From Oscillospiraceae bacterium (lineage in GTDB: Bacteria > Bacillota > Clostridia > Oscillospirales > Oscillospiraceae): a DNA stretch of 34,910 bases. Shown in pieces: positions 4,124 through 4,888 of the stretch (its first letter is position 1; the number at the start of each line of letters is the position of its first letter). Location: assembly GCA_017937195.1 (NCBI GenBank), contig JAGBEA010000001.1, positions 1 to 34,910 on the forward strand. Reading direction: 5' to 3'. Below the pieces are notes generated by a model. The model saw nothing but the letters and a program-made list of their open reading frames with translations, did no database searches and was not told where the DNA came from. The translations under genes were made by a program, and so were the position numbers.

Positions 4124-4309
4124 ATGGCAAAGAAGTCTATGATTCTGAAGCAGCAGGCTCCCGCTAAGTTCTCCACCCGTAAGTACAACCGCTGCAAGCT
4201 GTGCGGCCGCCCCCACGCTTATCTGCGTGACTACGGCGTGTGCCGTGTGTGCTTCCGCACTCTGGCTTACAAGGGCGAGATCCCCGGTGTCCGCAAGGCT
4301 TCCTGGTAA
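4124..4309 (+). CDS. rpsN: 30S ribosomal protein S14, zinc (type Z) form
   Basis: A 61-aa zinc-binding S14 with the ligand pattern [20 protein letters not shown] (C-x2-C-x12-C-x2-C). This is the short form typical of Gram-positive spc operons (often called rpsZ or rpsN1). S14 sits in the head of the 30S subunit with S3 and S10. The zinc-free paralogue is not in this window. It is followed by an unusually long 180-nt gap before rpsH. Confidence 0.98.
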
Positions 4310-4489
4310 ATCACCCAACCGCCCGTAAGGGCAACACACTCAATACCAAAGAGGGCGACCTCTGGTATATAAAAGGATGGCGAAAGGTCACCGGTAATTA
4401 ATCGTCTCATTGGTAGGGCGCCTAAATTTCCGGTGATACCTCGCTGCCTAAGCGGCAAGACCGCAACTCTAAATTAGGAGGATATAAAA
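4310..4489 (+). promoter_or_regulatory. structured 5' leader upstream of rpsH (candidate cis-regulatory RNA)
   Basis: The 180 nt between rpsN and rpsH hold several stems found by hand. These are (a) GCCC/GGGC at 4321-4324/4329-4332 closing a GTAA loop; (b) ATACC-AA-AGAGG (4343-4354) with CCTCT-GGTAT (4359-4368) closing a GCGA loop, so both loops are GNRA; (c) a long-range helix TCACCGG (4388-4394) with CCGGTGA (4430-4436), continued inward after a T-T mismatch by AATT (4396-4399) with AATT (4425-4428); (d) TAGG/CCTA (4414-4417/4421-4424) inside it; and (e) two mutually exclusive stems, CGCT/AGCG (4442-4445/4451-4454) or GCGG/CCGC (4452-4455/4461-4464), just before the AGGAGG site at 4476-4481. 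No credible ORF or promoter was seen. A role in autogenous control, for example by S8, is inference. Confidence 0.6.
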
Positions 4490-4888
4490 ATGCACATCAC
4501 TGATCCTGTTGCTGATATGCTGACTCGTATCCGCAACGCCAACAATGCCAAGCACGAGACCGTTGACGTCCCCGCTTCCAATATGAAGAAGAGCATCGCT
4601 CAGATCCTGCTGGATGAGGGCTACATCAAGTCCTTCCAGATCGTGGACGACGGTACGCAGGGCATTATCCGCATCACCCTGAAGTACAACGCCGGCAAGG
4701 AGAAGGTTATCTCCGGTCTGCGTCGTGTTTCCAAGCCCGGCCTGCGCGTGTATGTCGGTGCTGACGAGCTGCCCCGCGTGCTGCGTGGCCTCGGTATCGC
4801 AATCGTTTCCACTTCCAAGGGCGTCATGACCGATAAGGCTGCTCGCGCAGCTCATGTCGGCGGTGAGGTCCTGGCATTCGTATGGTAA
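4490..4888 (+). CDS. rpsH: 30S ribosomal protein S8
   Basis: A 132-aa protein ([30 protein letters not shown]). S8 is a primary binder of the 16S central domain, and in E. coli it is the translational repressor of the spc operon. The C-terminal signature ([24 protein letters not shown], then GGEVLAFVW) is complete. The ATG follows AGGAGG by about 8 nt. It is the first gene after the 180-nt structured gap. Confidence 0.99.

Follow-up and report, generated by a model that had tools for sequence, protein, structure and literature searches.

The region between the genes rpsN and rpsH of an Oscillospiraceae bacterium encodes a conserved, covarying structured RNA upstream of rpsH. We consider it highly probable that this RNA is an autogenous leader of ribosomal protein S8, the rpsH product, through which S8 represses rpsH and, by coupling, later genes; S8 binding, repression at translation initiation and coupling are the parts of this model that we infer. 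The data suggest that S8 restricts its own synthesis in gut bacteria of the family Oscillospiraceae, a lineage without known control of this kind. The spc operon is the longest r-protein operon of Escherichia coli, and its regulation in Bacillus subtilis and other species is described as unknown in excerpts of a 2024 review (PMC10931766). For one large gut-bacterial family, the proposed leader would offer a concrete, testable answer on spc regulation.

The DNA studied, referred to here as the window, is a stretch of 34,910 nt (assembly GCA_017937195.1, contig JAGBEA010000001.1, positions 1-34,910, forward strand). It contains a long gene cluster, within which an intergenic gap of 180 nt lies between the last nucleotide of rpsN (4309) and the first of rpsH (4490). 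A previous inspection of the letters, the sequence-only reading, had pointed to this gap as unusual among short ones, and five others in the cluster (rplN/rplX, rplX/rplE, rplE/rpsN, rpsH/rplF, and rplF/rplR) indeed measure 14-18 nt. That the gap is structured, as had also been proposed, is borne out by folding: region 4290-4500 has a folding energy of -67.6 kcal/mol (z -3.73), and none of 200 shuffles folded equally well. The parts of the RNA and its neighboring genes are as follows.

4124-4309, + strand: rpsN (S14), the upstream gene, from the ORF list
4343-4348 with 4363-4368 and 4351-4354 with 4359-4362, + strand: P0, an upstream hairpin with a GCGA loop, from folding
4376-4384 with 4441-4448, + strand: P1, a long-range stem, from covariation
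4385-4389, + strand: 5' strand of the S8 box, A-G-G-U-C, equivalent to 16S 595-599, from the alignment, the descriptor and excerpts of PMC4176348
4390-4434, + strand: P2, a variable upper stem-loop
4435-4440, + strand: 3' strand of the S8 box, G-A-U-A-C-C, equivalent to 16S 639-644, with A4438 as A642
4452-4455 with 4461-4464, + strand: P3, a short hairpin
4467-4480, + strand: Shine-Dalgarno hairpin, CUCU 4467-4470 with 4477-4480
4476-4481, + strand: Shine-Dalgarno sequence of rpsH, AGGAGG
4490-4888, + strand: rpsH (S8), the predicted ligand and first target

The two GNRA-capped hairpins noticed in the sequence-only reading are present (GCCC-GUAA-GGGC at 4321-4332 and GAGG-GCGA-CCUC at 4351-4362), and its long-range helix corresponds to P1 plus P2 (4376-4448). 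The conserved unit, approximately 4343-4489, is narrower than the gap, and the first GNRA hairpin falls outside the family-wide core. Two mutually exclusive stems had also been placed close to the rpsH ribosome-binding site; a weak Shine-Dalgarno hairpin is predicted there, but mutual exclusion was not confirmed, because this hairpin and P3 form together in the predicted folds. Within the genus, a six-codon frame (ATG GCG AAA GGT CAC NNN TAA) overlaps the 5' strand of P1. We take this frame to be a by-product, since AGG abuts its ATG and, judged by eye, the frame is not maintained in other genera (e.g., that of L047).

A DNA search of the genus detected the gap in 17 of 31 genomes besides its own, and a parallel S8 search found rpsH in 19 of 32, own included. 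The motif GATGGCGAAAGGTCAC occurs in all 18 genus loci examined, the window's among them, and whole blocks of the genus alignment (A1) are invariant. Beyond the genus, 24 further family loci (L047-L070) share, by eye, a common plan written in differing letters: a P1 stem, A-R-G-U-C, a variable stem-loop, G-A-U-A-C-Y, and the rest of P1, followed by a short hairpin, a pyrimidine run and AGGAGG.

Covariation was assessed in two alignments. A2, a sequence-only alignment of 26 sequences, has 91.3% standard cells. Of its 25 pairs, 14 show both-side changes, and its covariation score of 0.386 exceeds those of shuffled (0.215) and slid (at most 0.164) controls. RNAalifold applied to A2 independently recovered P1, P2, P3 and the Shine-Dalgarno hairpin, but it paired 597 with 641. 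The larger alignment, A4, was obtained with model R1 from 96 chosen loci, of which 94 matched (L103 and L104 were missed) and gave 89 distinct rows; L102, L106 and L117 were left out of the R1 run and are likewise absent from A4. This model-fitted set shows both-side changes at 18 of 21 pairs and a score of 0.458 (0.178 shuffled, at most 0.112 slid). Because A4 was fitted to the structure, A2 is the cleaner test. The compensatory changes for which the sequence-only reading had proposed a covariance search are thus abundant in both alignments.

Individual parts of the RNA vary to different degrees. Folding of 17 sequences, 15 from the genus and 2 from other genera, gave P0 as a hairpin of changing sequence in 16, the exception being L034, which adopts a different fold at this place. 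At the A-C mismatch of P1 (4377/4447), 34 of the 89 distinct leaders have a standard pair; P1 pair 5-83 and that of A4 columns 10/257 are nonstandard in 55 and 29 of the 89 rows, respectively. P3 has both-side changes at four of its five model pairs. P2 of the relative L049 carries a large insertion, and in L049, L154, L205 and L244 big insertions enlarge the loop of P2 or P3 while the stems are kept. Amid varying neighboring pairs, P2 of one clade keeps AAUU opposite AAAUU or a close approximation of it (4391-4430 in the window; also L047, L048, L051, L065 and L066); we know of no helix 21 counterpart for this element.

Comparison with 16S helix 21, which had been proposed as a check, revealed the match to the S8 box. 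As described in the available part of PMC4176348, the core recognized by S8 comprises A595-(A596-U644), a (G597-C643)-U641 triple, and an invariant A642. In the window, A4385-G-G-U-C4389 lies opposite G4435-A-U-A-C-C4440, such that 4387-4439 corresponds to G597-C643 and 4438 to A642. All 89 rows of A4 have the equivalents of G597, C643 and A642, an invariance that is conditional in that these rows are loci that matched R1; the box is absent, as far as readable, in L102 and L106, both outside A4. The residue 595 column, which precedes pair 596-644, is A in 86 of 89 leaders, and pair 599-639 is C-G in 88 and gapped in one. Two further pairs are maintained via compensatory change: 598-640 is U-A in 82 leaders and C-G in 5 (of the other two, one is unpaired and one gapped), and 596-644 is kept in 87 (84 G-C and 3 A-U) and unpaired in 2. 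These data show which parts of the S8 box are kept by nature. Only 6 of the 89 minimum-energy folds contain the 597-643 pair, a point against the S8 interpretation. The S8 encoded by rpsH in the window retains the STSKGVMTD segment of E. coli S8.

The leader and helix 21 share the box A-R-G-U-C/G-A-W-A-C-Y, its strand order, and the equivalents of A642 and G597-C643. No 16S match was found in the window's own assembly; three relatives from the genus have AAGUC/GAAACU as their helix 21 box, and the leader, which differs from it at 641 and 596/644, is therefore not a letter copy of their rRNA. Pair 596-644 is mostly G-C in the leaders instead of A-U, and 641, an A in the 16S of these three relatives, is U in 83 of 89 leaders and A in 6. 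P0, P3 and the Shine-Dalgarno hairpin are extra in the leader. Four loci (L107, L119, L120 and L121) have AGGCC facing GGAACC, with C-G rather than U-A at 598-640 and A at 641, and L243, a locus missed by the model, has AAGUC facing GAAACC, close to helix 21 of the three relatives.

We also searched with a box descriptor in rRNA order (RGUC, three further pairs, GAWACY, and paired 596-644). With a G-C option at 596-644 that was added after leaders had been seen, it matches 64 of 89 leaders, as against 15 of 17,800 shuffled ones. A search of the complete 35-kb window, both strands included, gave 4386-4440 as its single site, and it recovers helix 21 in the three genus 16S loci tested (3/3). Among 80 named relatives, 72 loci were matched within 500 nt upstream of rpsH; elsewhere in these relatives there were two matches, both on the other strand. 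A match in the E. coli stretch lies on the strand opposite to the genes and was taken as chance.

The RNA is distributed throughout the family. A broader model, R2, detected the core at E 1e-4 in 177 of 200 family genomes and 68 of 72 genera, a result that argues against the gap of unrelated sequence which the sequence-only reading had named as one refuting outcome. Two genomes (G098 and G197) have two R2 matches and two S8 matches each. Among the 23 genomes without an R2 match, no S8 gene was found in 7 of the 20 negatives listed. Seven negative loci were read directly: the box is legible in L103, L104, L243, L244 and L245, and not in L102 and L106. The latter two, from one genus, have gaps of 417 and 579 nt before rpsH with no readable S8 box, and a loss or replacement of the leader is possible there.

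Named relatives, all Oscillospiraceae, include Flavonifractor, Intestinimonas, Pseudoflavonifractor, Oscillibacter, Lawsonibacter, Dysosmobacter and Flintibacter, together with uncultured Oscillospiraceae and others. R1 matched 79 of 80 named loci at E <1e-8, and 78 of these matches end at the rpsH start codon; the strong match in L154 stops short because of an insertion, and for the same reason L205 is matched only partially. These loci yielded 19 additional R1 matches (E 0.01 to 0.98), one of which, in L154, ends at the rpsH start.

Over 395 genomes of the order, R1 matched 52, all in the window's own family (52 of 60 drawn, 0 of 335 others), and R2 matched 55 of the 60 family genomes; its 11 matches in the 335 others were weak (E 2.9e-4 to 8.3e-3). 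Among 393 genomes of the class, R2 matched three family members strongly and had nine weak matches outside the family. A search for S8, S14 and L5 around 18 weak matches (11 of the order and 7 of the 9 of the class; sites G623 and G586 were left out) found none of these genes nearby, and the 18 were consequently counted as chance. One R1 match in another family (L138 in genome G055, E 8.4e-4) does lie beside rpsH; this stretch consists of hairpins and a Shine-Dalgarno sequence, no S8 box was seen in this gap, and the match was rejected. In 22 loci from other families of the order, the rpsN-rpsH gap is at most 71 nt in 18 and longer in L123, L132 and L138, and in L143 rpsN could not be placed. 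Since the model searches were strictly filtered, these counts may miss diverged forms.

The conserved 3' part terminates on the Shine-Dalgarno sequence of rpsH, which in the window has an unpaired probability of 0.03, the lowest of the 18 window genes measured (the next is 0.26). Over the 89 leaders, the unpaired probability of GGAG has a median of 0.09 and ranges from 0.01 to 0.62. The Shine-Dalgarno sequence is thus predicted to be closed in the free RNA, i.e., without S8 too. Together with the S8 box, a 3' part ending in this manner points to feedback at the initiation of rpsH translation. In the model we favor, P1 and P2 would recreate the S8 box of 16S helix 21. When S8 synthesis outpaces that of new 16S rRNA, free S8 would bind the box in its own mRNA and stabilize a fold that extends via P3 to the hairpin covering the Shine-Dalgarno sequence of rpsH. 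The stabilized fold would lower translation of rpsH and, through translational coupling over the short gaps, that of rplF, rplR and later genes.

An S8 site could also act on mRNA stability or transcription, e.g., through cleavage or a halt of the polymerase between rpsN and rpsH. The position of the leader within a long gene cluster fits such a role, as does the retroregulation of upstream genes by E. coli S8 through mRNA destabilization, described in the excerpted text of PMC10931766. We regard it as unlikely, given the closing hairpin on the Shine-Dalgarno sequence at the end of the conserved 3' part and the lack of a terminator-like site on the + strand. In the search for such sites (a G+C stem plus a U run), none was found on the + strand and both sites found were on the - strand; an intrinsic terminator or attenuator was rejected for this reason. 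A fold without any ligand, insulating rpsH or setting its basal translation, would explain why the free RNA is already predicted to close the Shine-Dalgarno sequence, but it leaves unexplained an invariant unpaired A642 and internal-loop residues amid changing flanking pairs, and we give it very little weight.

The ligand itself may be questioned, since the gene that follows a leader frequently does not encode its ligand, as noted in the available part of Eckert and Weinberg (PMC7247131); the RNA might then be a structured leader for another operon protein (S14, L6, L18 or S5) or for a complex, merely resembling an S8 box. P3, P0 and the clade-specific P2 element, all absent from helix 21, would suit another ligand. 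The invariant A642 and G597-C643, however, are residues described for S8 recognition (PMC4176348, in part), and the descriptor's preference for leaders over shuffles likewise makes such a ligand improbable. Chance folding of a gap of unrelated sequence is opposed by covariation, by the descriptor counts and by the family-wide distribution, and its probability is close to nil. An autogenous S8 leader remains the explanation we prefer.

The surroundings of the core differ among relatives. Of 122 loci scanned, 75 distinct ones were recognized by the core pattern, and by raw pattern count 10 of these have a promoter-like hexamer pair no more than 70 nt upstream of the core; nine of the pairs lie 9-12 nt before it. 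The promoter-like TTTTCA-17-TATAAT precedes the S8 leader by 11-12 nt in L050, L053, L054, L055, L061 and L067, and a weaker pair lies 9 nt before it in L058, L059 and L062. In L053, three promoter-like sites compare with 0.1 in shuffles; no promoter-like site was found in the window's own gap. In promoter-bearing loci, the RNA may form the 5' end of its own transcript. A long inverted repeat (GCGCC...GGCGC...TTGCGT), recognized by eye directly 3' of rpsN in L050, L053-L056, L058, L059, L061, L062 and L067, perhaps marks a transcript end. A related element of 66 bases occupies the upstream part of the gap in L022, L032, L033 and L060; a search of five genomes found five copies in G012, one each in G008, G019 and G139, and none in the window's own.

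A broader scenario, to which we assign even chances, combines an independent origin of a helix 21 copy, in rRNA order, before rpsH in Oscillospiraceae with a split of the operon and a promoter in one clade. If it is true, S8 would directly control only rpsH and later genes, rplN, rplX, rplE and rpsN would escape the direct S8 block, and the promoter of one clade would make the leader the 5' end of a new transcript.

Rfam 15 gave no match in the window at the curated (gathering) threshold, and a permissive scan of the gap yielded two matches with E values of 1.4 and 5.4; we accordingly rejected membership in a known Rfam family, and the Rfam check suggested by the sequence-only reading brought up no known element. 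The same reading knew of no described leader at this place in Clostridia, and we found no report of this RNA, or of an S8 leader before rpsH, in the open-access literature, a body of text from which most subscription papers are missing. The 20 new leaders in Table 1 of Eckert and Weinberg 2020 (PMC7247131) do not include one for S8, as far as the available portion of that paper extends. The rRNA-mimicking leaders of S15, L20 and S4 treated there, as far as the same portion goes, are also covarying RNAs that precede r-protein genes and resemble rRNA sites, but their ligands are other than S8. A Clostridia S4 leader before rpsM, listed in the part of Table 1 at hand, is likewise a predicted r-protein leader among neighboring genes, but it differs in ligand and place, and the window's gap before rpsM is short.

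One of the closest known systems is the spc operator of E. coli, which likewise reproduces the S8 box in mRNA of this gene cluster, with feedback by S8 as is presumed here. The E. coli K-12 rplE sequence has GAAACU in positions +6 to +11 and AAGUC in +80 to +84, which agree with the A80-(A81-U11) triple of the E. coli S8 site given in excerpts of PMC4176348. The E. coli operator therefore has its strands in opposite order (639-644 before 595-599) and lies within the coding sequence of rplE, whereas the window box is noncoding, upstream of rpsH and in rRNA strand order. A descriptor in E. coli order, applied to 8 kb of E. coli, had the known rplE site as its sole match on the gene strand; it had no match on the + strand of the window, and a single - strand match, not near rplE, was taken as chance. 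At the window's rplE, which is preceded by a gap of 18 nt, no S8 site was found in either strand order. The sequence-only reading had contrasted the two systems by place, correctly, and understated the difference: with the E. coli site in the start of rplE and its strand order reversed, the contrast is sharper. Because these two defining features fail, we do not file the RNA as a homologue of the E. coli operator. It looks like an element that works as that operator does but is independent of it, and would be a second mRNA version of the S8 site, apparently of independent origin.
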